The notes under the pieces: model-generated
Told to the model about the DNA's origin: nothing
The model's database searches: none
What the model saw: only the letters and a program-made list of their open reading frames with translations
Part shown: positions 9,501 through 42,000 of the stretch, one piece after another
How the letters are laid out: each line of letters starts with the position of its first letter
Numbering within the stretch: position 1 is the first letter of the stretch
NCBI GenBank assembly: GCA_964019695.1
Contig: OZ026515.1
Span: forward strand, 140,489,549-140,553,548
Direction of reading: 5' to 3'
Length of the DNA: 64,000 bases
DNA from: Loripinus fragilis
Lineage: Eukaryota > Mollusca > Bivalvia > Lucinida > Lucinidae
Position numbers and translations under genes: made by a program

Positions 9501-12500
9501 AATGTGCATGCATGTCTTTAGAATACTTGTCAGCTCTGTCCCTTAAATAGCCAGTCTTCCTATTTTGGGAAACGCTACCTTTATCCCTCCCTATTTTGCA
9601 AAAAAGCCAGTTCTCACTATTTTGAGGTCAGCTACCTATGTTTGTTGCTATTACAGCAGTAAATGATAAGGAAATTTCAAAATCTCTTCCATAGAAATTT
9701 GCATGACTTTGGAGCATACACAGAATTGCTTGAAAAACACCACAAAAATTATCACAAATAGGTACATAATTTCTTACTGTCTCCCCCATGAAATTCTCAA
9801 AATCTTGACAGGTATCAAGTCTCTTAGTTATTTGTGCATATCAAAAACTATTTCTCTTATTTCTTATTCAAAACATACGTTGTTTGCACTCAAAAGAACC
9901 ATCTTAATGAGATAAAACACATGTTAAAACTAATGGATAAGAAAATATTCACAATTTTATGCTTAAAATATGTTTATCTAGACCTTTGAGGTATGTTCTT
10001 TATTTTTGTAGGATTCAGCATTCTGAGCATACTGAGAGTGTGAAATACAAGTTTGATCACAATCTGGAGAGAGAGACTGGTGTAGACTCCTACAGTCTCG
10101 GTCAGATCTGTGTAGAATCAATATGGTCAGTTGTAGGGGTACTGGACACAAATCTCTCAGAGTCAGACACTACTGACTCCTTGGAGAGCCCACCTCCTCA
10201 CCCAGATGCCACACTGCTGCAGAATATGGGCTCGAACTTGGTACCTGAACATGAAGGTGTGATGCGAGAGCAGACCTCAAGTCTGGGTGATCTTGATGTC
10301 CATTCATGTCTTCAGTTCTTGCTTGAGTTATATCGTCAGTGGCTTTTACCAGGGACCAATGGAAAACCACCTCTTATGCTACTCAATGAAGTAATCAAAT
10401 CGGTAAGCACTTGAAGATATTATGCATGTTCCAAAAAGGATATATACATATGTGAAGTTTTTTGGGTTATTCCTGAATTCATTATTTTGAGGCTGACTTT
10501 CCATAGAAAGTCAACATCAAAATACTGAAATAGGCAGATAAGAAAAGCTTCTTTGTATTATATAATACTTTTATTCTAAAGACAATTGACCTTTTGAAAC
10601 TGTTAATATTTTATTGGCATAGATACAGTAAGTTTTAAGGTTTAATTTTCAAAAGTTTCGACCATTTTGGGTCAATATGGAGACCTGTCCTAAGTTGATT
10701 TGGATACAATGTAAATTAGATTTAGATAATAGGACATGTTTGTGAATGGATTTCCTTATTCTCTATACATAGATACTTTGTGGTTACTAATGATAACCAT
10801 CTGATATTGTTTTAATTAACTCTTTGTATGCTGGGAAATTTGTTTTCATTCTTTTGTTGTCTTCAGTTGACTTTTTTTCAAAATTAACTTTTTCAAAACA
10901 TTCTTTCAGGAACACCATCAGAGTGTCAAACAGTTTGAATCCAGATCAGGACTGACATTCTGTCGGTCCTGATCTGGATCCAAACTGTTTGCAAAGGTAA
11001 TCAGTAGACGGCAAAAGTTGCCATTAGCACAGGGTTCATACGCGTCAGGGAAATGTCAGGGAAATTAAAAAAATTTCAAGGTCAGGGAATTGTCAGGGAA
11101 TTTTATGTTGTGTCAATGAAAAATGGATATTTGCTAAAATGTCAGGGAAATGTCAGGGAATTTTATAATTTCCAGTTTGTACTAAATGATGAGAAGCAGA
11201 AAATTGCTAGGGCAGTTTTCTTAACATTTTGGATACAAGCTTTATCATTTTGATAGCTTCGAAATTGCTTTAAACATAAGAAGATGGAAGAATTTGGTGC
11301 TCTTTGCATCCTCAGAGCTCTGCCTTTTTAGCTCACATGAGCCATAGGCTGAGTCAGTGAGGTACATATATTAGTTTGGCAATGGTCTCGGGTCTGGCAT
11401 CACTCATCATCCATTTGCATTTTGAAAGTGTCAGTTAGCCAAATGTGATGAAATTTCATGTAAAGATTCATCAGGTAGGGTCCCATAGACTTATAACTTG
11501 GAAAAAACTTTGAAAATCTTCTTCTGAAACCATTAGGCACACAGCTTATATATTTAATATATAGCAATGTCTAGTAGTCCCCTACATAAATCCTGCCAAT
11601 CAAGCCTCTGTGGTAAAAAATGGCCACACCCCGAGGATCAATGCTACATGTATTATGAAAAAAAAAATCTTTTGAAACCATAAAGTATGTGGCAACGACT
11701 AATGCTCCAGGTGCTCCCCTTGATTGCAAACTGGCCAAGCCTCTGGTGATCAACAGCTCTCATAGACAAAAACTTTACAAAACCTTTTCTAATAATGAGG
11801 CCCATAGTTTATACATTTAGTATATAGCAATGTCTTGTGGTCCCCTGCATAAATCCTGCCAACCCTGCCCTTGGGGTCCAACTTGACCATGCCGTGAGGG
11901 TCTGTCATTAGCTTCCTTATAATGGGGAAAAACATTAAAAAATCTTCTGAAACCATGAAGCCAATAGCTTTTATATTTAGTATGTAGCAATGTATAGTGG
12001 TTCACTACGTAAATCCATCCGATCCTTTGGAGTCTATAACCCTGGGGATCAAATTGGCCACCGCCACACCTGTGGGTGATTTGCTCCCATAGACTCATAA
12101 AAAATTGATAAAAAACTTTCTGAAACCATGAAGTCAACAACTCCGGTGAGCAGTTTAGTCTCATTAGGCTTCTTGTTAGCTCACCTAAGCATGTTGTACT
12201 CAAAGTCACTCAATGTTTGTTGTGAGTCATCTGTTGTCAACACTTTGCTATATTCAGAGTTTTAGTATAATTTTATCATGACAAAAGTAAGTAAAAAGGC
12301 AAAGATCAGAATTTGATACAATCAAGTACCACAACTGATCCTGGGCACCAGATCGGAAAGTGCCAAAAACACAAAAAATATCATCACACACAAGAGCACC
12401 AAAAGGTTAGCCCTTTCCCAGCAGGTTACCACAAAGCTGCAATGAACAGACAAGAAAGCATGACAAACACAAAACAAATAACAAAAATGATCCACAAAAG

Positions 12501-15500
12501 AAGCACCACTTGGAACGGTCAGTAAACATTCTTTTTACTGGAGGGCTTAAACTAGTTTTATAGTACCAACCTCACCCTTATTTCAGATGTGGATCAAGAC
12601 AAATAGATGTTTGGTTCACATAAAAGATCCCTAAAACCTTTTCTATCGTAGCTTTTACAATGACATATTCCACATCAGATTAAAAATGCTTTGCTTTCCT
12701 AAAAATCTGTATATACTGGTTGCATTATAGGTGGCTGTAGGGGAGGTTTAGAGGTCAACATCCAAATTTTTGAAAGAAGACAGCAGTTTTAATATAGTAA
12801 TTTGACAATCATGTAAATTTCTATTTGGAAACATAGCTATGTACTAAACTATAGACATGCTTTTAATGTTGAATAAATCTTTCCAAAATTAAAATTTTTC
12901 ACTCTAAATTGAAAACAGAGCTATTTACTGTAGCTATACACATAAGTTAGAATAAAATAAAGTTTCTCGGATGAGTACAGTTATGTCAGGGAAATTTGGA
13001 GTGGCGTCAGTGAAAAGTCAGGGAAATGTCAGGGAATTTTGTTTTGTCCTGCCTGTATGAACCCTGTAATAGCAAGGAAAGAGTTATTGATGTATATTAT
13101 CTAGGTTGTGAGTCTGTCAGATCTGTTTGCTGAGAGGGAACAATATGACTGGATGTTAGATACTCTGTTTGAGGTGTACAAGTCTCATCCCGGTGAAGAC
13201 AAGATAGCCATGCAGTACCTCAATGTTGTGATATGCTATATTATCTAGGTTGTGAGTCTGTCAGACCTGTTTGCTGAGAGGGAACAATATGAATGGATGT
13301 TAGATACTCTGTTTGAGGTGTACAAGTCTCATCCCGGTGAAGACGAGATAGCCATTAACTATCTGATATTGTATTAATTATTGTTATATTATCTAGGTTG
13401 TGAGTCTGTCAGACCTGTTTGCTGAGAGGGAACAATATGACTGGATGTTAGATACTCTGTTTGAGGTGTACAAGTCTCATCCTGGTGAAGACGAGATAGC
13501 TATGCAGTACCTCAATGTTGCTATATGTTATATTATCTAGGTTGTGAGTCTGTCTGATCTGTTTGCTGAGAGAGAACAGTATGACTGGATGTTAGATACT
13601 CTGTTTGAGGTGTACAAGTCTCATCCCGGTGAAGACGAGATAGCCATGAAGTACCTCAATGCTGCTATATGTTATATTATCAAGGTTGTGAGTCTGTCTG
13701 ACCTGTTTGCTGAGAGAGAACAGTATGACTGGATGTTAGATACTCTGTTTGAGGTGTACAAGTCTCATCCCGGTGAAGACGAGATAGCCATGAAGTACCT
13801 CAATGTTGCTATATGTTATATTATCAAGGTTGTGAGTCTGTCAGACCTGTTTGCTGAGAGAGAACAGTATGACGGGATGTGAGATACTCTGTTTGAGGTG
13901 TACAAGTCTCATCCCAGTGAAGATGAGATTGCTATGCAGTACCTCAATGTTGCTATATGTTATATTATCTAGGTTGTGAGTCTGTCAGATCTGTTTGCTG
14001 AGAGAGAACAGTATGACGGGATGTGAGATACTCTGTTTGAGGTGTACAAGTCTCATCCCAGTGAAGATGAGATTGCTATGCAGTACCTCAATGTTGCTAT
14101 ATGTTGTATTATCTAGGTTGTGAGTCTGTCAGACCTGTTTGCTGAGAGAGAACAGTATGACTGGATGTTAGATACTCTGTTTGAGGTGTACAAGTCCCAT
14201 CCCGGTGAAGACGAGATAGCCATGCAGTACCTCAATGTTGCTATATGTTATATTAACTAGGTTGTGAGTCTGTCGGACCTGTTTGCTGAGAGAGAACAAT
14301 ATGACTGGATGTCAGATACTCTGTTTGAGGTGTACAAGACTCATCCCGGTGAAGAAGAGATAGCCATGCAGTATCTCAATGTGGCTATATGTTATATTAT
14401 CTAGGTTGTGAGTCTGTCTGACCTGTTTGCTGAGAGAGACAAGTTTGACTGGATGTTAGATACTCTGTTTGAGGTGTACAAGACTCATCCCGGTGAAGAC
14501 GAGATAGCCATGCAGTACCTCAATGTTGCTATATGTTGTACTATCTAGGTTGTGAGTCTGTCTGACCTGTTTGCTGAGAGAGAACAGTATGATTGGATGT
14601 TAGATACTCTGTTTGAGGTGTACAAGTCTCATCCCGGTGAAGACGAGATAGCCATGCAGTATCTCAATGTTGCTATATGTTATATTATCTAGGTTGTGAG
14701 TCTGTCAGACCTGTTTGCTGAGAGAGAACAGTATGACTGGATGTTAGATACTCTGTTTGAGGTGTACAAGTCTCATCCCGGTGAAGACGAGATAGCCATG
14801 CAGTACCTCAATGTTGCAATATGTTATATTATCTAGGTTGTGAGTCTGTCAGATCTGTTTGCTGAGAGAGAACAGTATGACTGGATGTTAGATACACTGT
14901 TTGAGGTGTACAAGTCTCATCCTGGTGAAGGCGAGATAGCCATGCAGTACCTCAATGTTGCTATATGTTATATTACCTAGGTTGTGAGTCTGTCTGATCT
15001 GTTTGCTGAGAGAGAACAGTATGACTGGATGTTAGATACTCTGTTTGAGGTATACAAGTCTCATCCTGGTTAAGACGAGATAGCCATACAGTATCTCAAT
15101 GTTGCTATATGTTATATTATCTAGGTTGTGAGTCTGTCTGATCTGTTTGCTGAGAGAGAACAGTATGACTGGATGTTAGATACTCTGTTTGAGGTGTATA
15201 AGTCTCATCCCGGTGAAGACGTGATAGCCATGCAGTACCTTTATGTTGCTATATGTTATATTATCTAGGTTGTGAGTCTGTCGGACCTGTTTGCTGAGAG
15301 AGAACAGAATGACTAGATGTTAGATACTCTTTTTGAGGTGTATAAGTCTCATCCAGGTGAAGTCGAGATAGCCATGCAGTACCTCAATGTTGCTATATGT
15401 TATATTATCTAGGTTGTGAGTCTGTCAGACCTGTTTGCTGAGAGAGAACAGTATGACTGGATGTTAGATACTCTGTTTGAGGTGTACAAGTCTCATCCTG

Positions 15501-18500
15501 GTGAAGACGAGATAGCCATGCAGTACCTCAATGTTGCTATATGTTATATTATCTAGGTTGTGAGTCTGTCTGATCTGTTTGCTGAAAGAGAACAGTATGA
15601 CTGGATGTTACATACTCTGTTTGAGGTGTACAAGTCTCATCCCGGTGAACACGAGATAGCCATGCAGTATCTCAATGTTGCTATATGTTATATTATCTAG
15701 GTTGTGAGTCTGTCAGACCTGTTTGCTGAGAGAGAACAGTATGACTGGATGTTAGATACTCTGTTTGAGGTGTACAAGTCTCATCCAGGTGAAGACGAGA
15801 TAGCCATGCAGTATCTCAATGTGGCAATATGTTATATTATCTAGGTTGTGAGTCTGTCAGACCTGTTTGCTGAGAGAGAACAGTATGACTGGATGTTAGA
15901 TACTCTGTTTGAGGTGTACAAGTCTCATCCCGGTGAAGACGAGATAGCCATGCAGTATCCTAATGTGGCAATATGTTATATTATCTAGGTTGTGAGTCTG
16001 TCTGATCTGTTTGCTGAGAGAGAACAGTATGACTGGATGTTAGATACTCTGTTTGAGGTGTACAAGTCTCATCCTGGTGAAGACGAGATTGCTATGCAGT
16101 ACCTTAATGTTGCTATATGTTATATTATCTAGGTTGTGAGTCTGTCAGACCTGTTTGCTGAGAGAGAACAGTATGACTGGATGTTAGATACTCTGTTTGA
16201 GGTGTACAAGTCTCATCCTGGTGAAGACGAGATTGCTATGCAGTACCTTAATGTTGCTATATGTTATATTATCTAGGTTGTGAGTCTGTCTGACCTGTTT
16301 GCTGAGAGAGAACAGTATGACTGGATGTTAGATACTCTGTTTGAGGTGTACAAGTCTCATCCAGGTGAAGACGAGATAGCCATGCAGTATCTCAATGTGG
16401 CAATATGTTATATTATCTAGGTTGTGAGTCTGTCAGACCTGTTTGCTGAGAGAGAACAGTATGACTGGATGTTAGATACTCTTTTTGAGGTGTACAAGTC
16501 TCATCCTGGTGAAGGCGAGATAGCCATGCAGTATCTCAATGTTGCTATATGTTGTATTATCTAGGTTGTGAGTCTGTCAGACCTGTTTGCTGAGAGAGAA
16601 CAGTATGACTGGATGTTAGATACTCTGTTTGAGGTGTACAAGTCTCATCCTGGTTAAGACGAGATAGCCATGCAGTATCTCAATGTTGCTATATGTTATA
16701 TTATCTAGGTTGTGAGTCTGTCAGACCTGTTTGCTGAGAGAGAACAGTATGACTGGATGTTAGATACTCTGTTTGAGGTGTACAAGTCTCATCCTGGTGA
16801 AGACGAGATAGCCATGCAGTACCTCAATGTTGCTATATGTTGTATTATCTAGGTTGTGAGTCTGTCTGACCTGTTTGCTGAGAGAGAACAGTATGATTGG
16901 ATGTTAGATACTCTGTTTGAGGTGTACAAGTCTCATCCTGGTGAAGACGAGATAGCCATGCAGTGCCTCAATGTTGCAATATGTTATATTATCTAGGTTG
17001 TGAGTCTGTCTGACCTGTTTGCTGAGAGAGAACAGTATGACTGGATGTTAGATACTCTGTTTGAGGTGTACAAGTCTCATCCCAGTGAAGATGAGATTGC
17101 TATGCAGTACCTCAATGTTGCTATATGTTATATTATCTAGGTTGTGAGTCTGTCAGACCTGTTTGCTGAGAGGGAACAGTATGACTGGATGTTAGATACT
17201 CTGTTTGAGGTGTACAAGACTCATCCTGGTGAAGACGAGATAGCCATGCAGTACCTCAATGTTGCAATATGTTATATTATCTAGGTTGTGAGTCTGTCTG
17301 ACCTGTTTGCTGAGAGAGAACAGTATGACTGGATGTTAGATACTCTATTTGAGGTGTACAAGTCTCATCCTGGTGAAGACGAGATAGCCATGCAGTATCT
17401 CAATGTTGCTATATGTTATATTATCTAGGTTGTGAGTCTGACTGACCTGTTTGCTGAGAGAGAACAGTATGACTGGATGTTAGATACGCTATTTGAGGTG
17501 TACAAGTCTCATCCTGGTGAAGACGAGATAGCCATGCAGTATCTCAATGTTGCTATATGTTATATTATCTAGGTTGTGAGTCTGACTGACCTGTTTGCTG
17601 AGAGAGAACAGTATGACTGGATGTTAGATACGCTATTTGAGGTGTACAAGTCTCATCCTGGTGAAGACGAGATAGCCATGCAGTATCTCAATGTTGCTAT
17701 ATGTTATATTATCTAGGTTGTGAGTCTGTCAGATCTGTTTGCTGAGAGAGAACAGTATGACGGGATGTGAGATACTCTGTTTGAGGTGTACAAGTCTCAT
17801 CCCGGTGAACACGAGATAGCCATGCAGTATCTCAATGTTGCTATATGTTATATTATCTAGGTTGTGAGTCTGTCTGATCTGTTTGCTGAGAGAGAACAGT
17901 ATGACTGGATGTTAGATACTCTGTTTGAGGTGTACAAGTCTCATCCTGGTGAAGACGAGATAGCCATGCAGTATCTCATTGTTGCTATATGTTATATTAT
18001 CTAGGTTGTGAGTCTGTCAGACTTGTTTGCTGAGAGAGAACAGTATGACTGGATGTTAGATACTCTGTTTGAGGTGTACAAGTCTCATCCCGGTGAACAC
18101 GAGATAGCCATGCAGTATCTCAATGTTGCTATATGTTATATTATCTAGGTTGTGAGTCTGTCTGACTTGTTTGCTGAGAGAGAACAGTATGACTGGATGT
18201 TAGATACTCTGTTTGAGGTGTACAAGTCTCATCCTGGTGAAGACGAGATAGCCATGCAGTATCTCAATGTTGCTATATGCTATATTATCTAGGTTGTGAG
18301 CCTGTCAGACCTGTTTGCTGAGAGAGAACAGTATGACTGGATGTTAGATACTCTGTTTGAGGTGTACAAGTCTCATCCCCGTGAAGACGAGATAGCCATG
18401 CAGTACCTTAATGTTGCTATATGTTATATTATCTAGGTTGTGAGTCTGTCTGATCTGTTTGCTGAGAGAGAACAGTATGACTGGATGTTAGATACTCTGT

Positions 18501-21500
18501 TTGAGGTGTACAAGTCTCATCCTGGTGAAGACGAGATAGCTATGCAGTACCTCAATGTTGCTATATGTTATATTATCTAGGTTGTGAGTCTGTCTGTCCT
18601 GTTTGCTGAGAGAGAACAGTATGACTGGATGTTAGATACTCTGTTTGAGGTGTACAAGTCTCATCCTGGTTAAGACGAGATAGCCATGCAGTACCTCAAT
18701 GTTGCAATATGTTATATTATCTAGGTTGTGAGTCTGTCAGACCTGTTTGCTGAGAGAGAACAGTATGACTGGATGTTAGATACTCTGTTTGAGGTATACA
18801 AGTCTCATCCTGGTGAAGACGAGATAGCCATGCAGTATCTCAATGTTACTATATGTTATATTATCTAGGTTGTGAGACTGTCTGATCTGTTTGCTGAGAG
18901 AGAACAGTATGACTGGATGTTAGATACTCTGTTTGAGGTGTACAAGTCTCATCCCCATGAAGACGAGATAGCCATGCAGTGCCTCAATATTGCTATATCT
19001 TATATTATCTAGGTTGTGAGTCTGTCAGACCTGTTTGCTGAGAGAGAACAGTATGACTGGATGTTAGATACTCTGTTTGAGGTGTACAAGTCTCATCCCA
19101 GTGAAGATGAGATTGCTATGCAGTACCTCAATGTTGCTATATGTTATATTATCTAGGTTGTGAGACTGTCTGATCTGTTTGCTGAGAGAGAACAGTATGA
19201 CTGGATGTTAGATACTCTGTTTGAGGTGTACAAGTCTCATCCTGGTGAAGACGAGATAGCCATGCAGTATCTCAATGTTGCTATATGTTATATTATCTAG
19301 GTTGTGAGTCTGTCAGACCTGTTTGCTGAGAGAGAACAGTATGACTGGATGTTAGATACTCTGTTTGAGGTGTACAAGTCTCATCCTGGTGAAGACGAGA
19401 TAGCCATGCAGTATCTCATTGTTGCTATATGTTATATTATCTAGGTTGTGAGTCTGTCTGACTTGTTTGCTGAGAGAGAACAGTATGACTGGATGTTAGA
19501 TACTCTGTTTGAGGTGTACAAGTCTCATCCCGGTGAACACGAGATAGCCATGCAGTATCTCAATGTTGCTATATGTTATATTATCTAGGTTGTGAGTCTG
19601 TCTGATCTGTTTGCTGAGAGAGAACAGTATGACTGGATGTTAGATACTCTGTTTGAGGTGTACAAGTCTCATCCCAGTGAAGACGAGATAGCCATGCAGT
19701 ATCTCATTGTTGCTATATGTTATATTATCTAGGTTGTGAGTCTGTCTGACTTGTTTGCTGAGAGAGAACAGTATGACTGGATGTTAGATACTCTGTTTGA
19801 GGTGTACAAGTCTCATCCTGGTGAAGACGAGATAGCCATGCAGTATCTCAATGTTGCTATATGCTATATTATCTAGGTTGTGAGCCTGTCAGACCTGTTT
19901 GCTGAGAGAGAACAGTATGACTGGATGTTAGATACTCTGTTTGAGGTGTACAAGTCTCATCCCGGTGAAGACGAGATAGCCATGCAGTACCTTAATGTTG
20001 CTATATGTTATATTATCTAGGTTGTGAGTCTGTCTGATCTGTTTGCTGAGAGAGAACAGTATGACTGGATGTTAGATACTCTGTTTGAGGTGTACAAGTC
20101 TCATCCTGGTGAAGACGAGATAGCTATGCAGTACCTTAATGTTGCTATATGTTATATTATCTAGGTTGTGAGTCTGTCTGATCTGTTTGCTGAGAGAGAA
20201 CAGTATGACTGGATGTTAGATACTCTGTTTGAGGTGTACAAGTCTCATCCCGGTGAAGACGAGATAGCCATGCAGTACCTTAATGTTGCTATATGTTATA
20301 TTATCTAGGTTATGAGTCTGTCTGATCTGTTTGCTGAGAGAGAACAGTATGACTGGATGTTAGATACTCTGTTTGAGGTGTACAAGTCTCATCCTGGTGA
20401 AGACGAGATAGCCATGCAGTGCCTCAATGTTGCAATATGTTATATTATCTAGGTTGTGAGTCTGTCTGACCTGTTTGCTGAGAGAGAACAGTATGACTGG
20501 ATGTTAGATACTCTGTTTGAGGTGTACAAGTCTCATCCCGGTGAACACGAGATAGCCATGCAGTATCTCAATGTTGCTATATGTTATATTATCTAGGTTG
20601 TGAGTCTGTCTGATCTGTTTGCTGAGAGAGAACAGTATGACTGGATGTTAGATACTCTGTTTGAGGTGTACAAGTCTCATCCTGGTGAAGACGAGATAGC
20701 CATGCAGTATCTCAATGTTGCTATATGTTATATTATCTAGGTTGTGAGTCTGTCTGACCTGTTTGCTGAGAGAGAACAGTATGACTGGATGTTAGATACT
20801 CTGTTTGAGGTGTACAAGTCTCATCCCGGTGAAGACGAGATAGCCATGCAGTACCTTAATGTTGCTATATGTTATATTATCTAGGTTGTGAGTCTGTCTG
20901 ATCTGTTTGCTGAGAGAGAACAGTATGACTGGATGTTAGATACTCTATTTGAGGTGTACAAGTCTCATCCTGGTGAAGACGAGATAGCCATGCAGTATCT
21001 CAATGTTACTATATGTTATATTATCTAGGTTGTGAGACTGTCTGACCTGTTTGCTGAGAGGGAACAGTATGACTGGATGTTAGATACTCTGTTTGAGGTG
21101 TACAAGTCTCATCCCGTTGAAGACGAGATAGCTATGCAGTATCTCAATGTTGCTATATGTTATATTATCTAGGTTGTGAGTCTGTCAGACCTGTTTGCTG
21201 AGAGAGAACAGTATGACTGGATGTTAGATACTCTGTTTGAGGTGTACAAGTCTCATCCCGGTGAAGACGAGATAGCCATGCAGTATCTCAATGTTACTAT
21301 ATGTTATATTATCTAGGTTGTGAGTCTGTCAGACCTGTTTGCTGAGAGAGAACAGTATGACTGGATGTTAGATACTCTGTTTGAGGTGTACAAGTCTCAT
21401 CCCGGTGAACATGAGATAGCCATGCAGTATCTCAATGTTGCTATATGCTATATTATCTAGGTTGTGAGCCTGTCAGACCTGTTTGCTGAGAGAGAACAGT

Positions 21501-24037
21501 ATGACTGGATGTTAGATACTCTGTTTGAGGTGTACAAGTCTCATCCCAGTGAAGACGAGATAGCCATGCAGTACCTTAATGTTGCTATATGTTATATTAT
21601 CTAGGTTGTGAGTCTGTCTGATCTGTTTGCTGAGAGAGAACAGTATGACTGGATGTTAGATACTCTGTTTGAGGTGTACAAGTCTCATCCCGGTGAAGAC
21701 GAGATAGCCATGCAGTATCTCAATGTTACTATATGTTATATTATCTAGGTTGTGAGTCTGTCTGACCTGTTTGCTGAGAGAGAACTGTATGACTGGATGT
21801 TAGATACTCTGTTTGAAGTGTACAAGTCTCATCCCAGTGAAGATGAGATAGCCATGCAGTACCTCAATGTTACTATATGTTATATTATCTAGGTTGTGAG
21901 TCTGTCTGACCTGTTTGCTGAGAGAGAACAGTATGACTGGATGTTAGATACTCTGTTTGAGGTGTACAAGTCTCATCCCAGTGAAGATGAGATTGCTATG
22001 CAGTACCTTAATGTTGCTATATGTTATATTATCTAGGTTGTGAGTCTGTCGGACCTGTTTGCTGAGAGAGAACAGTATGACTGGATGTTAGATACTCTGT
22101 TTGAGGTGTACAAGTCTCATTCTGGTGAAGGCTAGATAGCCATGCAGTATCTCAATGTTGCTATATGTTATATTATCTAGGTTGTGAGTCTGTCAGACCT
22201 GTTTGCTGAGAGAGAACAGTATGACTGGATGTTAGATACTCTGTTTGAGGTGTACAAGTCTCATCCCGGTGAAGACGAGATAGCTATGCAGTATCTCAAT
22301 GTTGCTATATGTTATATTATCTAGGTTGTGAGTCTGTCTGACCTGTTTGCTGAGAGAGAACAGTATGACTGGATGTTAGATACTCTGTTTGAGGTGTACA
22401 AGTCTCATCCCGGTGAAGACGAGATAGCTATGCAGTACCTCAATGTTGCTATATGTTATATTATCTAGGTTGTGAGTCTGTCAGACCTGTTTGCTGAGAG
22501 AGAACAGTATGACTGGATGTTAGATACTCTGTTTGAGGTGTACAAGTCTCATCCCGGTGAAGACGAGATAGCCATGCAGTATCTCAATGTTGCTATATGT
22601 AAGGCTGCAGCTGTTGTTGGAGTGGTGAGTAGGGCTGATTTTAACCAAACATAGTTAGAGGGATATAACTTTAGCATCGTCCGTCCGTCCTTTCGGAACC
22701 ATATCTCAATGCCCATAAGTCAGATTTGATGCATTCTTTGTATTAATTATTTGTACCATAGACTGTCAATATCCTTAAAGTTTCCTTGAAATCAACTCAT
22801 TAACACATGAGTTACTAACCTTAACATCGACTGGGGATTTGTTGTACAAAATCTATATTGGCTTTTGTTTAATGAATTTCGACTTCCCATTACCCCAAAA
22901 CTATAGTATATCTAGCAACTTCTCATTACGGGCTTTTTATGGGCATTGATTGCCCAGTGCCTGTAGATAAGCACAAGGTTTTTAAAAAGTTAAATCCATG
23001 CCCGGGTCCAGAGGGTGTACACAGGGGGTCCGGACCCCCCCCCCCTTCCCCCACTGAAATCCCAAATTCTATAGGTTCCTATAGAAATAATCAATTGGAC
23101 GCACCCTGGACAACAACAAAAAATGTCAGAGCTTTTTTCTGTCAGTTGGAGCCCGTACCTCCACCCCCTACCCCTGACGAAAATTCCTGGTTCTGCACAT
23201 GTACTCCATCCCCTTACCCCATAGGTAGATCAAAAGTCAAATATATAAATTTACCAGTAACTAAGTCATTTGGCAATATTTTCAACCCAAAATTTGCATA
23301 CAGACAGATGAACAATGGATATGAACATCTAAAATCAGATTCAATGACATACACCCTTGACTCCTGGTGTGGGGTCAAAAGTTTAGATCATTTTTTTCTA
23401 AAGGTGGTTATGTTGCTTATCAAATTAAAGGGAATAAAGGTTAGAACAAAATGCAAGCAAAAAGTTTGATGTTACACACACCTTGTTGGGTTACAAGGTC
23501 AAATATAGAAATTGTGTAGTTTAGTATTTTGGTGCTTATTGCATACAGTAAAACCTGTCTTAACCGGCCACTCAAAAAGATCAAGTATAATTATCAAGAC
23601 CTAGTATACCTTAAGTCAGGGCAAACTTATTGCAGAATGCTTTGACCTTCATTAAGCTAACATTTGTCATAAAGATCTTTGTTTTGTCTATTTTTGAGTG
23701 GCCGCTTAAGACAGGTTTTACTGTATGATTTGTGAGCAGCCAAGTCACAAGACAATCCTGCATATACCCTCAGTCTTACTAGAGCCTTCAATGTTATATG
23801 AAGACTTAGGCCTCTAGCTCCACTATATTGCTGCATATACATGATTTTACACAGTGGCTCAGTAGTAGAGTGCTTGACCTGAGATGGAGGGGATGCAGGT
23901 TTGAGCCTGACTGGTGTCACTGCATTGTGTCCTTGAGCAAGACACATTGGTCTTTGTTTAGGACTGATTCAACCCAGGAAGGCCTATCCAAACATAACCG
24001 AAAAATTGTTGACTGGGATGTAAAGAATCAAATTAAA

Positions 24038-30000: not shown

Positions 30001-33000
30001 CGTGAGGGGTCACATTTCAATAAAATGAACAGCTCATTTAATTTATTTAAAAGAATTTATTGATAAAAAATTATGATGGTAGCATAGTAGTTGTGAAAAT
30101 TTAATATTTTTACTATTTCTTTTTTAAGCAAATTTTAGCTTATTATGAGCAGAAAGTACATGTACCACAGTAATAGATCATGTGTACCAACAACAACATT
30201 GGGGACATGATGATGAAATGATAAGGCTTTGTTGGTGATCAAAGTATGTTCACTGTAGTGTTAAAATCCCAAATTAAAGCCAAAAGTGCTTCTACTTGTG
30301 CAAAATACAGTATAGTCACCTTAAAATTCTATATTTGGGTACACAAGAATGAACTGTGTCATAAGTAAAGGGACAATTTTACAAAGAAATTATAGGAAAA
30401 TGGCCATTACATGGTCACTTTCCTGTATTTCCATTGTAAAATTCCATGGTAAAAAAATTGGAGCCACAACATTATGTTATATAGGGACTGCGCTGTATCT
30501 CATAAATAAGTACTGAATTTTTATCAGAAGTACACACATTATAATCATGTAGTGTAAATGTTACTATTTTAAGGTACCATTTCCATTTTTCAGAGCCATT
30601 TGTTTTTACCTTTTCTTGACTTGTTGAATTTTTTCTATCCGTTTTGATACAATATAATTAGCCATGTCCATTTTGAGATGTTTCAAGTTATAAATAATTT
30701 CCAGATGAAGTTGTGTTTCTGTTTCTGAATATTGTTTAAACCTGAAATTAACAGGGTAGACTGCAACATTTCTACTGGATTAACACTGTTGGTATGCCAT
30801 GTAATGGGTTTCCAGTGAATTTTTCAGGTTTTTGTGAATGTGGAGCACAGTAGCTCAGTTGGTAGAGTGTCAGATTGGGAATTGAAAGGATGCTAGTTCA
30901 AGTTTCAACGGATTCACTGTCCTTGAGCAGGACACTTTATCCACTACTTAGTACTGGTTCAACCCAGGATGACAAGAATTCCTCCAGACATGACTGGGGA
31001 CGTAAAGCATGAACACAAACAAATTCAGATTTGGGAGCTGCTTTAAGGTTTGATGTTTATGTGAATTGTCTCAGAAATAACAGAAAAAAAAGTTTTCTGC
31101 TGCAAAAGTTGTTTGTTCCCAATATAGTGGTTAACCCTCAAAGCGCCAATCACGACTGCAACCTACGACAAATTTGCCGACACCTTTCTTGATTTTCAAG
31201 AAAAAAATAGGTATGATTTTTCATGAGAATCGTCTGCTGGTCGTCTGCCAGCAGACGATTCTCATGAAATATCATGCCTTATTTGTTATTTTTGAAAAAG
31301 CGAAAAAAATTTGAAATTGTCGTCTGCTGCAAATTATAGGTGGCGCTTTATGTGTTAAGATTATTTGCTGGAGATTGTAGTTCTAGATAAATGAGAGGAA
31401 AATGACTAAAACTTAACCAGCAACATTTGTCGTCTGCTGATAACTTTGCAAACAGTTTGGACCCAGATCAGGGCTGACACAATGTCGGTCCTGATCTGGA
31501 TCCAAACTGTTTGACACTCTGATTGTATTTCTAAAATAATTGTTTGAAAAAGTTAATTTTGAAAACAGTCAGCAGACAGCAACAAAAGCATGAAAGATTA
31601 CCCAGCATGCAAAGAATGAAAAAATAAAAAAAGGCTTGATATTGTATGTGAATCGTCTACTTGCAGACAATTCACATAAAATATGAAGCCTTCTTGTCTT
31701 TGAAAATAAAAAAAAATCACATAATTTACTGTCTGCTAATTTTGTGGTTAAGATTATTAGCTGCAGATTGTATTTTCAGATAAATGAGAGGATCACGATT
31801 TAAACATAACTTGAATGATTGATCTTTTTGTTTCTTGACCTTTAGGATTCCACTACAGCTGATAAACTAGTGAAAATAATAGCTAATGGTTTGAAGAGTA
31901 CCCACCTATCCAGTAAAGTATCCACCTTGTATGGTTCCCTGTACCTACTGGAGGCTGCTATACCTGAGGTCAACAAATTACTGGTTCCTGCATTGACAGA
32001 ATTCCTTGTTAAGCATATAGCTAATGTGAGCAGGTAATGTTGCTGAGAGATGAAATTTAAGTTTTTGAAAAATTATTTATTGTGAAATAAAACTACAGAA
32101 AAACCTGTCTTAAGCAGCCACTCAAAAATAGACAAAACAAAGGTCTTAAAGACAAATGGTAGCTTAATGAAGGTCGAAAGTATTGCAGAATGCTCTCTTG
32201 GAGCATTCTGCAATACTTTTGACCTGCATTAAGCAATAATTAATCTTGAAAACAAATTTAGGGTCTTTTTGAGAGTTGCCTTTTTTCACAGGTTTTAATG
32301 TAGTGAATGATTTCTGTATGTATAGGAGAAAGTCCAAGAAACTGTTCCTTCCAAAAAAAATAACGGACTAAAGGCCTCCGCATGCACACGCAGATCCAGA
32401 AATTTTTACAGAGGGAGTGCAACTTTGACTACGTTTTTTTTTAGTTGATGAGGGGAGAGAGGATCCGAATACCACTATAAGCGGGCCATCATCGGCCCAT
32501 CTGCGAAACGCCATTTAAATGGCATTTCCCTGGCGGGTCAATGGTGGACCAACATTTAATGCTGGCCTGGTAGCTTTGTGATTTTACAGTGGATCTGGAC
32601 CAGTATTGCTAAGAAACCCTATATTTTTGTGATTTTTCAAGGGGAGTCTGGACCCCCTGTCACCCCTGTGGATACACACATACTCAGGAAGGCTGTGTGC
32701 CATTGTTTTTCCTGATCCCCAATGGACAGTTACTAAGGCTTTCTCAAGCAAATTATATCTTACGAAATATCTGTATTTAACTGGATTATGTACCTTTCAC
32801 AAATATATAGGGATAACATAAAACAGCTGTATTGTCTGAAACCACTGACCACTGGTTTCAGAGCCTTAGCATTTGATATGTAACATCACCTAATGGTTGT
32901 TCAAATTATGATTCTGGGGCCAAATACATTCCTGCCCTAGGAGTCCTGGAATCTTGGAATATGTTGTCAGATCTGCATCACTTAACCATATATAGTATTT

Positions 33001-36000
33001 ATGGGCCTCGAAGCCAGAAAACCTGTCTTCGGTGGTTTACTAACAACACAGGCGCAGACCAACCTGCGCATCCCCACAGTCTGATCAGCGCCCTTGTTAT
33101 TCGCTTTTGGGAATTATCATATATAAACTTGCTACAGGTGAAGTTTCAATTTTCTAGCTAGTCACAGTCCCTGAGGATACTGGTTTGAAACTCGCTTTGC
33201 GGGAAACCCTGAAGACAGGTTTTCTCGCTACGAGGCCCTTATGATAATGGGCATTCATAAACATCTCCTGCAGGTACCTTTGCTTGTAATTACATCTTCT
33301 ATTTTGTGTACCAGTCCCAGAGTTCTATATTTTGCCTGTTTTAAACAATATTGTATGATTCTCTTTTATTTTCAGCCAAGGAGTGTGTAGTCAGAAGTAT
33401 ATTTTATCAATGTGGGCCACAGCCTTCTTTATTATTGAGAACTGTAGCACAGATCTGAAAGATGGAGACTTTACAACACAAATACTGCAGGTAGCACAAT
33501 TTCTTTCAAAATACCTTATTCAAACAATAACAACAGGTTTAATCCTAATTTGTCGACGAAAATATTTTTTGTGAGGTCCAGTGACTTGATGTCACCACCA
33601 CTGCAGCACCGGACTACTATGACTTGAAGCACATGCACCATATGCATTCCAGATGCGGACCACATGTCTGTTAGTTGTAAAGTATTCTAACACACCTCGC
33701 CTATAGAGTCAATGCTAAGAAAGTGTAATATATATCACAATAAGTCACAGTTAGGAAAGCGCAAGGAAAGTGCGTGCTAGATAACGTCATTTGTTACTGA
33801 TAAATGACGTCATTGATGGCATTAGACAGTCTAACATTGTTTTTACGCTTAAAAAAGGTTACAAATACACATAAACGAATGAGATGTAGTCTAAGTAGTG
33901 ACGGGAGTTCTTCAACACAATGGCTGAGAGTTTGGAAGAAGCTGAAGACTTCAAATGTGTTTTTGTCGTTTGTGTGTTAGAATCGAAATAGATCAGCCTT
34001 AGTGCGTGAATTGTTGAGTAATAATTCACTGTTTGTCGGTCAGTTGTAGGAAGATAAGTCACTCACGCTGCACGCTTGTGATTTGATCTTCTTTACAACT
34101 GACCTCCAAACAGTTAATTATTATGCAACAATTCACTGCTAGAGCTGATCTATTTCTTAAATATCAGTTCCACATATGTTCATCCTAAGGTGATACCTGC
34201 TAGTTATGTTATGTCATGAGGCCTGATAGCAGCTGCGGGGAAAAATTTACTGACGTATTTCAACTGATAAGAATGATTTTGAATTATTTTATCCATTGCA
34301 TGTCTGTAAGTCCGGTGTGACTGAGGCATACAATTCATCGAATTGCTGCAAAGTGATTTATCTAAGAATACTGATGTTGGTTCCTATCAACAAAGCCAAC
34401 TGTAAAAGTTGTTGGTTATACATTCCCTTTATTCTTCAATCTACTGAATCTACTCAAGATTAACAATTTTAAGACCAATGGTTATAATTAAAAAAAAATA
34501 TTGTTTATCTTTCTCTTAGGATCGATTTGTCTTAGCAAACAGTGCAGACCTTGATCTGGGCTTTCACTGTTTTCCAAAGTTCTCATTTAAGATAGAACAG
34601 GACAGAACAGAAATTTATTATGACGTAGACAAATATAGTCTATCATCATACAATACAAAATTTGCAAATTTGCAAGCTATCACATGAAAAAGGAAGTAAT
34701 GTCGCAGTAAACTACAGAGAATCCACCCACAAGAATTAACCCAATGTTGAGTGTACTATGTCAATACCAGCAAAGTTTGATGTTGCTACATCCCATGGTT
34801 AAGGAGAAGATGCATTTACAAGAAAATACATTATTTGACCTTGACTTTGGGGTCAACGTCACACAAAATGTTGCCCAGTACCCTCAACATCATGTGACCT
34901 ATACACCAGCAAAGTTTGATAGTGCTACATCCCACAGTTAAGGAGAAGATGCATTTACAAGAAAATACATTATTTGACCTTGACCTTGGGGTCAAGGTCA
35001 CACAAAATGTTGCCCAGTACCCTTGACATCATGTGACCTATGCACTAGCAAAGTTTAATATTGCTACATCCCACAGTTAAGGAGAAGATGCATTTACAAG
35101 AAAATACATTATTTGACTTTGACCTTTGGGTGAAGGTCACACGAGCGAAATGTTGCCCAGTGCCCTGTTCATCATGTGACCTATGCACCTACAGAGCTTA
35201 AATTTACTACCTCAAAAGCATTATGAGGTGAAGCATTTACAAGAAAATTCAATATTTGACCTTGACCTTGGAGTCTAGGTCACATGAAATGTTGCCTAGT
35301 ACCCTCTACATCATATGACCTATCCAGCTACAAAGTTGAAGTTGCTACGTCTAATCGTTTAGGAGGAGATACATTTACAAGAAATAACATTATTTGATCT
35401 TTGACCTTGACATTGGGGTCAAGGAAATGTTGCCCAATACCCTCTACATCATGTGACCTATTCAGCTACAAAGTTTGAATTTACTATGTCAAAAGGTTTA
35501 GGTGGGGATGCATTTACAAGAAAATTCAATATTTGACCTTTTATCTTGGGTCAAGGTCACACGAAATGTTGCCCAGTACCCTCTACATCATGTGACCTAT
35601 TCCGCTACAAAGTTTGAAGTTGCTATGTCTAACCAGTTAGGAGGAGATACATTTACAAGAAAATACATTATTTGACCTTTGACCTTGACATTGAGTTCAA
35701 GGTCACACAAATGTTGCCCAGTACCCTTTACATCATGTGACCTATTCAAATACAAAGTTTGAAGTTGCTACCTCTAATGGTTTAGGAGGAGATACATTTA
35801 CAAGAAACGTGACGGATGCAGGAACGGACCGACTGACACAATATTAATATACCCTTTTTTTCTAAAGAAAAAAGTGGGTATAAAAACAAACAAACAGGGC
35901 AATATTCTCATATTTCAGCTAGCAGTTGCTATGGCCTCAAGTAGTGAGGACAGTGTATCTTCAGTTGTATACGTTACAGTACTTAAAGGTCTAGAGAGAT

Positions 36001-39000
36001 TGTTGCTCACTGATGTTCTCACAGCTCAGGATGCTGACATCATTGTCAAACTCAGTGTAGATAGGTGGGTACAACAAAATACAGACGATCTGAAGCCATG
36101 CTTCCTAATATTGTAGCAGTATCAACTATGCATGCTGGGTCATTTTTTGTGCTATTTGTTGATGTTTGCTGAGTTTTTTTCAAAATCAACTTTTTCAAAA
36201 AAATCTTTCAGGAATACTATCAGAGTGTCTAATGGTTTGGATCCAAAGTCCTGGCCTCGAGGTTATAAAACTTGAGTACAGTCTCAACCTCAAAATAAAG
36301 CACAATGATAGGCTGCTTGCCGACATGTGTCCGCAAGCAGCCAATTATAGCGCTTTATTTTGAGTTTGAGAATGAACTCAAGTTTTATAACCTTGAGGCC
36401 TGATCTGGTTCCAAATTGTTTGCAAAGGGAAGAGTAAGAAAATACTAACAATTTATCCAATCAAACTATTTGCTTAACTTGACCTATGCATATGGTTGGT
36501 ACCGTCACACAGGGTAGTTGTCTTCATATTGATGGACAAATAACCATGATCAGCTTTACTTTGATTCACAGTCTGGATGAAGTCTTTATTGTGTGTCTAC
36601 TAGATTAGAGAATGGTAATGTGGATTTAAACCTTTTCCTTGTCGTCTGCCCATAAGCTTTGCAAGCAGTTTGAACCCAGATCAGAACCGACTGAATGTAG
36701 AATATCGGTCCTGATCTGGGTCCAAACTGTTTGACACTCTGATAATTTTTGGAAGAAGTTAATTACAAAAAAGTCGGCAGACTTCAAAAACATGAAAAAT
36801 TACCCAGTATGCAAAAGTTAAGGGATGTTTTCTGATTTTTTGATTTTATGATACATATTAAAATCATGCTAAATTGTCTCCCTGTCTAATGCATTCTAAA
36901 AGTTCATTTTGAAAAAAGACTGCAAACGACACCAAAGTATCATATAATGATAAATTACCCAGCATGCAAAGAGCTATGTTGCAATTGTATGATAGTATGA
37001 TATCGATAGTAAAATCATGCTAAATTGTACCACTGTCTAATGTATTCTAAAAGTTAATTTTGTAAAAAGTCAGCAGATGACGGGTAAAGCATGAAAAATT
37101 AACCATCATGCAATGAGTTAAGGGATGTTTTCCTATGTAGTAATTGTATGATAGTATGATAGATAGTAAAATCATGGTAAATTGTCTCGGTGTCTAATGC
37201 ATTCTTTCTCTTGTGTCTTATTTTGCATGACATGCCATGAAATATTGATATATTATACACAATATGTGAAGAGACACTGTCTGATAACACTTAACCCACC
37301 AGTCACAACTTTAATCGTCAGCTCTCTTTTCTGCTTATGTTCCTAGCCTTTATTGCAAACAAGACAGATCCAGATCAGACTGCTCCCCTATGGGAGCAGT
37401 CTGATCAGGGTCAATATTGTTTGTTCCATGGGAGCAGTCTGATCTGGGTCCATAGTGTTTGCTTTCACGAAAAATATACTTGAAAATATGCAGTAGATGC
37501 TAAAAGCAGGCAATGTTTTCAGGACAAAAAAAATAGTGGCGAGATAAGAGTAAGGATTTTGGTACTTATTGATAGACCCAGTTACACAAACATTTTTAGC
37601 CTAAAATTGTGAATATTTCTCGACCATCATTTAAAACATGTTTTAGAACCATCTCAATGAGACCCATAACCTGTTTTGGTTCAGAAATAAGAAAATTAGT
37701 TGTTCATATACAGGACTTTAGTTAAGAGAGCGTAACAAAAATTTAATTTTTTTATTTCTCAACCAAGACATATGTTGTAGGTACTCATTTGAGACGGTTC
37801 TTTTGAGCACCCAAAACATATGATAAAATTGATGGGTAAGAAAATATTTACAATTTTACGCTGAAATTTTTTGTTTATCTAAACCTGTGTTCATGTATAT
37901 GGTAAGTGCCAAAATCTTCATGATCTGGCTCAAATAAAGTTACTCGGGTCACGTAGCCAAGTCAGTAACATGTCTGACGGCAGATCCAGGGGTCACAAGT
38001 TTGATCCCGGCCCCATACTTTCGTGGAGATTAATCCTGAAATAATATCTATGGCCATTCTTCTCCCGATGATTCAAGAAGGGTTGTTATCAGTTACAAGG
38101 GAAACTATTTGCATTAAGTACTGATTAAATGCTTAGTCAAACTTGCCCAGGAAAAAAAGTGTGGTAAGGTGAACTGACCTTCCCGACATGACCATAGCTG
38201 TTGACTGGGATGTAAAGAAACAAACCCAAACCAAAAAGATCAAATAGAGTTACCCATTGGCAGACTACTACCTGAACTGGGTTGATGCTTTTGATCAGAT
38301 CTATCTGTCTGAATACGTTAAGCCTTTTTTTGTTATCCACTGCATTCTTATAGTTTTTGTTTTGTTTATTTTGCAGGCTGTGTCTACCCAGTCCACAGAG
38401 AGCTTTAGCAGGCCTAGGTCTATTGTTCACCTGTATGTATTCTGGTTTTGTTTTGTTTATTTTGCAGGCTGTGTTTACCCAGTCCACAGAGAGCTTTAGC
38501 AGGCCTAGGTCTACTGTTTAACTGTATGTATTCTGGTTTTGTGTTGTTTATTTTGCAGGCTGTGTTTACCGAGTTCACAGAGAGCTTTAGCAGGCCTAGG
38601 TCTACAGTTTAACTGTATGTATTCTGGTTTTGTGTTGTTTATTTTGCAGGCTGTGTTTACCGAGTTCACAGAGAGCTTTAGCAGGCCTAGGTCTACAGTT
38701 TACCTGTATGTATTTTGGTTTTGTGTTGTTTATTTTTCAGGCTGTGTTTACCCAGTCCACAGAGAGCTTTAGCAGGCCTAGGTCTACTGTTTACCTGTAT
38801 GTATTCTGGTGAGTTCAATTATTGTCTGTATATATCTTCAACCACAGAGTGAGGTGACATTTTGATATACAGTAAAACCTGTCTTAAGCAGCCACTCAAA
38901 AAGAAGACCAAAAATTGGTTTTTGAGACCGTTTATTGCTTAATGAAGGTCAAAAGTATTGCAGAATGCTCCAAGGGGAGCATTCTGCAATACTTTCGACC

Positions 39001-42000
39001 TTCAATAAGCTACCATTTGTCTTTAACACCTTTGTTTTGTCTATTTTTGTGAGACCACTTAAGACAGGTTTTACTGTAGTCTTGTCCATCCGAGATAAAC
39101 TCTTGTCTGATTTCCACCAAACTGTACAGATGTGATCAGTGTCCGGTCCAGTTGTGAATATTGTCAGACTTTTTCTCGTCACTGATTTTGTAGGAGTAAC
39201 AACCCTTGATGTTAATAACCCTTAGCCAACTAGTCACTCCTCATCTGCTTATGTTAATAGGTAGCCTATATTGCAAACACAATAGGGACCCAGATTAGAC
39301 TGCTCCCAAGAGAACAGTCTTATCTGGGTCCTTAGTGTTTTGTATGATCCATGATAAAATCAAGTCTGAAGTGCTCTCGAATATATTCAGCAGATGTAAA
39401 AACCAGACATTTTCAGGACAAAAAATATGACCTGGAAGAAAACCTTGGCAATGAGCTGGGGTTAGGGTTGGAAAGGTTCATGTTTTTCTGACCATAATTG
39501 GGGGAAAATAATGGTCAAAACTGACTTATTTGCTAGGCATTATTAGTACATTGATGTTTTGTTTTCTATTTAGGTAAGCAGTATGACCAGTATAGCCCCA
39601 GACCCAGAGATCATCAGACTTTCAACATGGATGAACCTTCTAGTCTCTATCAGGACCCAGAATCCCTGATTGTTGCTATGGAGCGGGTTACAGTACTCTT
39701 TGATAGGTAGGAATCATTCATTTTAGGATAAGTTTCATTTCGGTTTTAACTCTTTACATGCTGATTTGACCTGCTGTCAATCTTTGCAAACAGTTTGAAT
39801 CCAGATCGGGCCGGACAAAATGTCGGGCATGATATGGATCCAAACTGTTTGGTACTCTGATTGTAGCGTTAATTTTGAAAAAAAATCACATGACTGCAAA
39901 GAGGTAATCAAAATTATTCAGCATGGAAAGAGTTAGTTGGATGTTTAAGTAGTGCTTTGTACATTCAGCAGTTTGATATGTCATATATCCAAGATGAAAA
40001 AGAGATTGAAGATGACTTTCTGTGAATTAATCTTAGTCTTCAATTTATTAATCTTGATTTTACCTCATATTTATAGACAATGCAAAACAGCAGATGTTTT
40101 TTTGATATGTATAAATTGAAAGTACTTGAATAGCCTTAAATTAAGAATGCTGTAATTTATCAAAAGCTTTTTTTTTTACCAATGAACTTCTTCATGCTCT
40201 TTTTTGATGGATATTTTTTGGCACAAAGATGTGTTTTAAAAATTTAACCAACACAATGAAAAAGTAGGAAATGTGCAAATGAAAATCTGGTTCATGTATT
40301 TCTGGATGTAAAAATGAGATTTTATGTGTTTGTAGAATCAAGAAAGGTTATCCATATGAAGCCAGAGTTATAGCTCGAGTACTGCCAGCCTTCTTAGCGG
40401 ACTTCTTCCCACCCCAGGATATCATGAATAAAGTTATAGGAGAGTTCTTGTCTAGTCAACAACCCTACCCCCAGCTCATAGCCAAGGTTGTCTTCCAGGT
40501 AAGCCTGAGGTTCGTTTGACCCTTTTCTGTCTTGATACAGGGAAACAGCTACTTTGGAAAACAGTGAATATCCAGATGAAATGCCGCATAATGTGGCATT
40601 TCATCAGGGTCTGCACTGTTTGCCCAGATAAGAAAGGGACAAAAATACATCATTTTATAGAAATTTTGACCAGCAATTAACCTCTAAAAATACAAAATGG
40701 ACAATTCCATACTTAAACTATCAAATTGTATGGGATAATCCATCTAAATGATAAAGATAAAGCTTACTTGAAGTTTACTAGTCTTAATCTCTCATTTTAA
40801 GTCATAATACGGGCCATCTCATTAGATTTGGGTACTTATCACAGACTCCAAACTCCCATGCTGGCATATCAAGCTTACTAGAGGTCTAGTATTTCGTCTA
40901 TGTCTTCATCTACCTCTAACTTTATGTAGGCGAGCAGCAAAGGCTCTGGCGAGACTATGCACCTGCACAGTCAAGTCTGAGCCTTTGCTGCTCGCTTATG
41001 CAATAATTGCCAAAATTCATCTGGCTCATTTATTTTATCAATTTCACTCATCATATCATAATCGGATTTTTAATTAATGTGCAGGTGCAGGGGCATCATC
41101 CACATCAGTGGGCCCCTTTCCAGGTAACTGGCTAGCTGCACGCACAGCAGATCTCACACCTGATCTCCAGGTGCTCCTTTCTAGAGGGTCAACTGTGGTG
41201 AGCTTCCACTCACGGCAGTCTTTCTCTGTCAGTTTCTTTCATGTTTGCTTGGGCCTCCCTGCCCCCTGCTTGCCGTCAATCTGCATATCATATGCTGTTC
41301 TGATTGCACCACTCGAACGCGCCACATGCCCAAACCAGCGAAGCCTTCTCTCTCTCAAAATGAGGTCGAGGTCCTCAAGCTGAAGCTTTGCCAGTAGCTC
41401 GCTTGACCTTACCCTGGCCACATCCTCTGGCTTGATACTGCAGATCTGTCTGATCATGGCCCTATCATTGCGTTGCAAGCGCTGCAGGTTCGTCTTGGTA
41501 AGTGGCCAAGTTTCACTGGCATGGAGCATGGCGCTCCGCACGCAAGAGCTGTACACATGGCCACGGGTCTTGTAAGAGAGGTGGCGGGATGTGAGAACTG
41601 GTAGTAGCCCCCTGAACTTCTTCCAGGCGGTTTTCACATGAGTAGTGACCGCCATTTCACAGCCTCCACCAGCAGAAAGCATGTCACCTAGGTAGCAGAA
41701 GGAAGCTACCACCTCAAGCTTATCAGGTTCGACCTGGACTTCACTCTGTGGTCTGCCGTCAATAGGGCGAGCATTTCCCATGCACCGTGCACGCCTATAA
41801 TCAGGATTTGGTGTCAGTCTTTGTAGCCCTGCATTTCTTGTGCACCCAAAGCTTGCAGCCATTGCAGTAGATGCTGTTGTTGCCTACTCCTGTACGACAG
41901 ACAGCGCATGGGTATTCGCCTGAACTCTGCAAGAGGTCCAGGCCTGTACCACAGATCATGACTTTTGTCTTTCCTGCATTCACCCTCAATCCCTTCTTCT

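Follow-up and report, generated by a model that had tools for sequence, protein, structure and literature searches.

Arrays of tandem or mutually exclusive exons consist of complete exons that all carry an acceptor and a donor and are used, and the coding tandem repeats of polyubiquitin and of the LPA kringle are homogenised, with their protein sequence under selection and their copies translated. In addition, long satellite arrays are reported to lie in the introns of working genes such as Drosophila kl-3 and kl-5 and to be transcribed (PMC6508621). Here we describe a 64,000-nucleotide stretch of the genome of the bivalve Loripinus fragilis (contig OZ026515.1, positions 140,489,549 to 140,553,548 of the forward strand; hereafter the window), in which the 5' part of one huntingtin exon, together with its splice acceptor, is repeated 66 times head to tail. 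This array (A1) is one of eight in the same gene.

The huntingtin arrays resemble the polyubiquitin and LPA kringle repeats in being homogenised under protein selection, and differ in that all but one copy per array are presumably untranslated. As is reported for Dscam and the oyster alternative oxidase gene (PMC1397879, PMC5589949), exon sequence stands head to tail within one gene; unlike Dscam-type arrays, however, the huntingtin unit has one splice site and each array has one complete copy. With kl-3 and kl-5 they share the presence of long intronic tandem arrays in working genes, but whereas the arrays there are reported to be simple satellites (PMC6508621), the huntingtin unit is the gene's own exon edge with a splice site.

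Tandem Repeats Finder placed A1 at 13093-22600, with a period of 144, 66.0 copies, 95% matches and 0% indels. Anchored on the exon start, the copies begin at 13105, 13249 and 13397 and then every 144 bp through 22469, exactly the coordinates of the original prediction; 64 of the 65 spacings are exactly 144 bp and the single exception is 148. The accompanying claim that the unit consists of the acceptor and the 5' 132 nucleotides (nt) of the exon was also borne out, and the true exon stands solely at the 3' end of the array: only copy 66 continues past 132 nt, adding KAAAVVGV and then the donor GTGAGT. The acceptor AG is present in 66/66 copies (TAG in 64/66), and TAG occupies 63 of the 65 copy-to-copy junctions, the exceptions 4-5 and 5-6 reading CAAG. 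The end of copy 2 has diverged. The copies are not clones, since only 3 of 2,145 pairs are identical over the exon part; that of copy 66 is identical in none of the other 65 copies, and the same 44 residues are encoded by 21 of them. A donor-like GTGAGT lies three bases into the exon (exon position 4) in 59 of the 66 copies. Two units folded no better than shuffles (z = +1.85), no known RNA family scored above its gathering score within the window, and the exact 24-base junction was absent from prokaryote and viral contigs, collections that may omit the window's own records.

In the PDB, the A1 exon matched chains of huntingtin (best E 1.6e-10), aligning with residues 2709-2756 of 8yae_A (3,144 residues), and scored 47.1 bits against Pfam Htt_C-HEAT (cut-off 25.3). 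It is thus a late huntingtin exon, corresponding to human residues ~2706-2756; the number 8 originally given to it could hold only as a count within the window. The exons on either side match huntingtin in order, so that sequence match and colinear exons continue to the C-terminus. The open reading frame at 33359 had no PDB or Pfam match by itself and was assigned to the gene by its order. Two further exons, located by motifs, are taken to belong to huntingtin; for one of these, near 42820, an Htt_C-HEAT match at C2:140532356-140532538 supports the assignment. With an approximate human huntingtin sequence as a probe, 38 colinear matches extended from 140408161 to 140533936. All 63 returned Htt_C-HEAT matches lay at one locus, within C2:140493630-140532538 (45 of 79 candidates scored), which supports the earlier description of huntingtin as a conserved single-copy gene; the gene appears to be single-copy in this 1.99-Gb genome. 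A processed or broken gene copy was considered and rejected, as introns are present and the exons are open as far as the stop codon.

A1 had been regarded as a single isolated array. However, a second array (A2) lies in the window at 38355-38810, an Htt_N-HEAT_1 search revealed part of one exon repeated five times in tandem upstream of the window, and in the 100 kb read upstream we found six more exon arrays (A3-A8); others are present in myosin and kinesin genes. Huntingtin therefore carries eight arrays on seven exons, with 2 to 66 copies and units of 83-153 bp (Table 1). Each unit covers one splice site, five being acceptor-type and three donor-type, and one exon carries both kinds (L019 9427-9630, C2:140458975-140459178, with A5 on its 5' side and A6 on its 3' side). 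The splice dinucleotides are intact in all copies counted (AG 98/98, GT 22/22). Neither the A5/A6 exon nor the A8 exon had a Pfam match; the former matched PDB huntingtin (residues 1668-1704 of 6rmh_A, E 5e-5), and the latter, which had no database match, is placed in huntingtin presumptively, by gene order and likeness to human huntingtin. The five copies of A3 share one open frame (265 aa), and splicing to the first acceptor could lengthen huntingtin by four repeats of 43 residues. In A4, one and the same 37-residue sequence is encoded by all 11 copies, whose 11 variants are all synonymous. The CpG ratio of the units followed no consistent pattern.

Searched against the whole genome (1,987,113,829 bases, 685 contigs), the A1 unit returned 66 matches, all inside A1, and the A2 unit five, all inside A2; both counts are lower bounds. 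A1 thus has the properties of a satellite or minisatellite, its head-to-tail copies being 95% alike and bearing signs of concerted evolution (local similarity and a near-identical three-copy block), and neither unit formed a family with more than one genomic place among the returned matches.

Table 1. Exon-edge arrays, huntingtin exons and intronic arrays (window positions unless a stretch is named)
Feature	Position	Strand	Unit and copies	Description
Array A1	13093..22600	+	144 bp x 66	acceptor-type; 12 nt intron end (TATATTATCTAG) + 132 nt huntingtin exon
A1 copies 4-6	13541..13882	+		junctions 4-5 and 5-6 without TAG, giving a 113-aa open frame
A1 working exon (copy 66 + sole exon 3' end)	22469..22624	+		exon end GGAGTG then GTGAGT; PDB and Pfam matches
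Donor GTGAGT of A1 working exon	22625..22630	+		copies 1-65 lack the exon end and this donor
Array A2	38355..38810	+	91 bp x 5	acceptor-type; intron end of 22 nt (..TTTGCAG) + complete huntingtin exon (68 nt), native donor absent
A2 working exon	38741..38808	+		then GTGAGT; PDB huntingtin match, best E 0.0038
Array A3	L015 3581-4249		129 bp x 5	acceptor-type; exon above huntingtin Pfam cut-off
Array A4	L019 5182-6520		121 bp x 11	donor-type, CAACAG then GTAAGTTATT; exon above huntingtin Pfam cut-off
Array A5			83 bp x about 12	acceptor-type; 5' side of exon shared with A6
Array A6			126 bp x 8	donor-type; 3' side of exon shared with A5
Array A7			101 bp x 2 + more distant third copy	donor-type; exon above huntingtin Pfam cut-off
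Array A8			153 bp x about 10	acceptor + whole exon
Huntingtin exon upstream of A1	10012..10402	+		preceded by TTTTGTAG; starts GATTC, ends AAATCG then GTAAGC
Huntingtin exon downstream of A1	31846..32033	+		CCTTTAG then GATTCC; ends GAGCAG then GTAATG
Last huntingtin exon	44196..44409	+		stop codon TAA; gene end lies 3' of both window arrays
Intronic array	34771..35807		139 bp	81% matches; counted as non-exonic
Intronic array	36787..37205		151 bp	72% matches; counted as non-exonic

We consider it probable that these exon-edge satellites are neutral arrays seeded by short duplications at exon edges, with A1 as the largest case in huntingtin; the splicing choice, the founding event and the neutrality are what we infer. 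Exon definition predicts that the splice site nearest the rest of the exon is chosen. Translation from non-working copies would meet a stop in A1 (65/65, every upstream acceptor reaching a stop before the exon's donor), A5 (11/11), A8 (9/9), A4 (10/10), A6 (7/7), A7 (2/2) and A2 (3/4), and retained copies would end translation in six of the eight arrays. Because the downstream gene is intact and retention would bring stops, splicing probably picks, in most cases, the site that adjoins the remainder of the exon. The other splice site of the exon would pair with its nearest partner, the last acceptor in acceptor-type and the first donor in donor-type arrays, and all non-working copies would then be intronic.

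The founding event would be a tandem duplication of 80-150 bp over one splice site and the adjoining part of the exon, joined at sequences sharing scarcely any homology or none, and would be tolerated because the copy adjoining the rest of the exon remains a complete exon. One splice site per unit is expected if selection removes duplications within exons and those of whole exons with both sites. The extra periodicity at the founding joins is 0-2 nt in A2, A3, A4 and A6 (the 4 nt of A1 is its one 148 spacing), which suits end joining or the fill-in of staggered nicks better than recombination between repeats. From two copies on, unequal exchange, block duplication and gene conversion could expand and shuffle the array. 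Growth by exchange is supported in A1 by its local similarity and its near-identical block: neighbouring copies resemble each other more than they do when the order is shuffled (P = 0.0025; 400 shuffles, copies 3-66), and copies 36-38 nearly repeat copies 47-49, with two differences in all (P = 0.005). If the working copy joins the exchange, a damaging variant would be possible in a single copy and would rarely spread.

The variants of A1, counted without copy 2, differ in this respect by frequency. Their synonymous share was 5/30 among variants in one copy, 9/20 in 2-3 copies, 8/11 in 4-9 copies and 6/6 in at least 10 copies (singletons versus those in at least four copies, Fisher P = 2.2e-5). 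Compared with a neutral synonymous expectation of about 0.24, derived from the A1 spectrum, the common variants were strongly enriched (14/17, P = 6e-7), whereas the singletons were not (5/30, P = 0.52). Stops occur inside the 132 nt in 9 of 66 copies, and the ratio of nonsynonymous to synonymous polymorphism (pN/pS) among copies is 0.12. Single copies of A1 thus look unconstrained, but the variants that spread are filtered. The seven smaller huntingtin arrays together had 85 variants, of which 45 were synonymous (P = 1e-8 versus 0.24), with a synonymous share among singletons (29/52) above that of A1 (5/30, P = 5e-4). In these counts strict matching took 7, 9 and 11 copies of A6, A8 and A5, for which a later count gave 8, 10 and 12.

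Several observations weigh against neutral arrays with intronic copies. In the smaller arrays the synonymous share shows no increase towards more frequent variants (29/52 singletons versus 16/33 shared variants, P = 0.66) and both classes exceed the neutral value. Passage through the working position could cover this pattern together with that of A1 if circulation were faster in small arrays, an idea formed after seeing the data. The A4 copies could be translated. Retention is free of stops in A3 (4/4 upstream copies) and in A2 (1/4, out of frame by one base), and the exact spacing of 144 in 64 of 65 steps of A1 implies fewer indels than expected for neutral copies, as judged by a rough impression from other arrays. 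Finally, the concentration of arrays on exons has no explanation under a purely neutral model, and the match table indicates a low prevalence elsewhere (4 of 277 places, all four in kinesins), by a measure that misses short units, as myosin shows.

A different reading of the extra splice sites is that they act as decoys, extra acceptors or donors mostly followed by a stop that lower or regulate huntingtin expression through unproductive splicing. The intact AG and GT in every copy counted, the stops that all non-working copies reach in six of the eight arrays and three of four reach in A2, and the GTGAGT near the exon start of A1, which could define 144-nt poison exons, are all compatible with such a function. 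However, invariant dinucleotides are unremarkable at this divergence, and because many columns never vary we dropped them as evidence of selection. Moreover, the array sizes range from 2 to 66, the single-copy variants of A1 are neutral-like and the A1 stop arises from the acceptor TAG itself; we therefore regard decoys as unlikely.

The arrays are not spread evenly over the gene. For this comparison we took arrays with a period of at least 60, merged overlapping rows and kept A5 and A6 apart; the exon map comprised the 38 colinear matches and the A5/A6 and A8 exons, giving 40 exons that occupy 6,729 of 126,000 bases (about 5%), on which a randomly placed unit of the same length overlaps an exon with a probability of 0.06-0.095 in each case. 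Eight of 14 arrays overlapped exons (P = 3e-6), on an exon map drawn partly from the approximate human probe. When related arrays were merged (A5 and A6 counted once, two 191-bp arrays counted once), 7 of 12 lay on exons (P = 1.1e-5). The exon list is incomplete and depends on that approximate probe, and two of its entries owe their inclusion to the arrays they carry. Matches were 94-98% in the eight exonic arrays and 72-93% in the intronic rows (period at least 60). Among the latter, a 191-bp repeat family forms short arrays at two sites of the gene (C2:140415618-140416521 and 140476032-140476803).

We tentatively raise the possibility that a mutational process prefers tandem duplications at exon edges and that exon definition shields the results, in which case exons would continually seed satellites whose copies are a shuffled record of the working exon's past. 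Candidates for such a process, offered as ideas only, would be small circles or staggered nicks arising where exons are methylated or covered by nucleosomes. MicroDNA circles of 100-400 bp are reported to be enriched in exons (PMC9527254); such exon-derived circles could in principle reinsert as tandem copies, and a link to the huntingtin arrays is speculative.

Other gene families were surveyed as well. Kinesins gave 125 matches (122 of 327 candidates scored); four tandem clusters accounted for 44 of these, which by eye reduced the total to 85 places, four of them arrays. All four are donor-type and lie on the exon with the nucleotide-binding loop, with units and copies of 141 bp x 13, 145 bp x 7, 123 bp x at least 5 and 107 bp x at least 32; the last (C1:55119429-55122532, about 107 bp) runs to the end of the fetched stretch. 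Neither UCH nor SNF2 had an exon array among 59 matches each. Three UCH matches within about 412 kb (C16:24296140, 24660922 and 24707786) share an equal score and a 2,242-aa open frame and are perhaps recent copies of one gene.

The 74 myosin matches (65 of 266 candidates scored) contained no tandem series at 60-500 bp. Tandem Repeats Finder, applied to 30 of the 74 loci (about 3.2 kb each), detected a single array that covers a matched exon (L037, 98 bp x 4, donor-type); further arrays stood beside matches. Of those beside, four have units that read as other myosin exons, and L032, L042, L045 and L046 are apparently non-exonic. Among eight stretches compared with Pfam, Myosin_head scored above the cut-off for L037, L036 and L052 and below it for L049 (E 2.5e-5) and L041 (E 0.0033), and one copy each of L036 and L041 had no Pfam match. 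In 30 kb around the L037 gene, the arrays with a period of at least 45 were the L037 exon array and one 47-bp array. Two myosin matches 687 bp apart, on one strand and from the same part of the profile (C19:11382442-11382600 and 11383129-11383248), are a possible wider-spaced exon duplication. Exon-edge arrays thus occur in several genes but sparsely, and huntingtin is rich in them.

Ordinary neutral minisatellites falling on exons by chance would need no bias, and the six intronic arrays in huntingtin, several near myosin exons and the lack of an exon array in the match table for three of the four further families fit that view. Nevertheless, we think it improbable, given that 8 of 14 huntingtin arrays fall on exons, which occupy about 5% of the gene (P = 3e-6), and that every huntingtin row with a period of at least 60 and at least 94% matches is exonic.

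That the copies are coding, whether as alternatives among repeated exons, like those of Dscam, or as repeated segments of one protein, is very unlikely. The frame open through all five A3 copies and the single 37-residue sequence encoded by all A4 copies speak for it. However, the exon end and donor exist solely in A1 copy 66, TAG interrupts 63 of 65 A1 junctions, the periods of A2, A4, A5 and A7 are not multiples of three, and stops follow from all non-working copies in A1, A4, A5, A6, A7 and A8 and from three of four in A2; moreover, copies encoding near-identical protein would offer little choice. Mutually exclusive exons were rejected in particular, as donors are absent from the copies and their use brings stops. 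A1 has one exon-end donor for 66 acceptors and A4 one acceptor for 11 donors, in place of an acceptor and a donor per copy, and A3 alone is open on use in all copies, all 65 upstream copies of A1 leading to a stop.

An assembly artefact is very unlikely, as nearly every copy has private variants, the variant classes track codon structure and predicted proteins from a different contig bear the same junction. A protein search with A1 copies 4-6 returned P0001 (94 aa; 14 member sequences), which consists of two copies joined by the A1 junction and lies on a 522,393-bp contig, different from the 1,753,407-bp contig bearing the window's own proteins. A search with a single copy returned P0031 (48 members, some possibly from the window's own genome), which is also on the 522,393-bp contig and ends NVAICYII. 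P0033 (1,688,275-bp contig) ends NVAICSIYRL, and its back-translation agrees with a copy that breaks off at the same point of the exon and has 11 nt of intron end; P0002 (993-bp contig) reads as a separate duplication of the A1 exon with another break. The other listed relatives have the ordinary exon end, except P0034, a copy of the window itself. Either another species or the other haplotype of this one may be the source of the 522-kb contig.

One further feature of the window lies in a huntingtin intron on the minus strand (41801-42354), where the remains of a retroelement reverse transcriptase and a PHD-finger match were found; RVT_1 was above the cut-off in one open reading frame and below it in the other.

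Both intronic satellites and tandem duplication of exons are already known. What appears to be new is the occurrence of exon-edge arrays whose units have a single splice site, with more than one array in a gene and more than one gene affected; judged by titles and the starts of abstracts, we found no description of such arrays, or of an exon array in huntingtin, among the open-access papers listed. If neutral arrays seeded at exon edges are the right reading, single exons of conserved genes can become kilobase arrays with the gene left intact, and the untranslated copies bear the imprint of selection on one working copy. A1 would then be a strong natural test of exon definition, with 66 near-identical acceptors competing, and such arrays would be a source of long introns and of copy-number variation inside conserved genes; variation in A1 copy number between individuals is likely. 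An exon-biased duplication process, if true, would itself be new. It may mean that exon-biased genome growth has gone unrecognised, and gene prediction in genomes of this kind would be misled by it.

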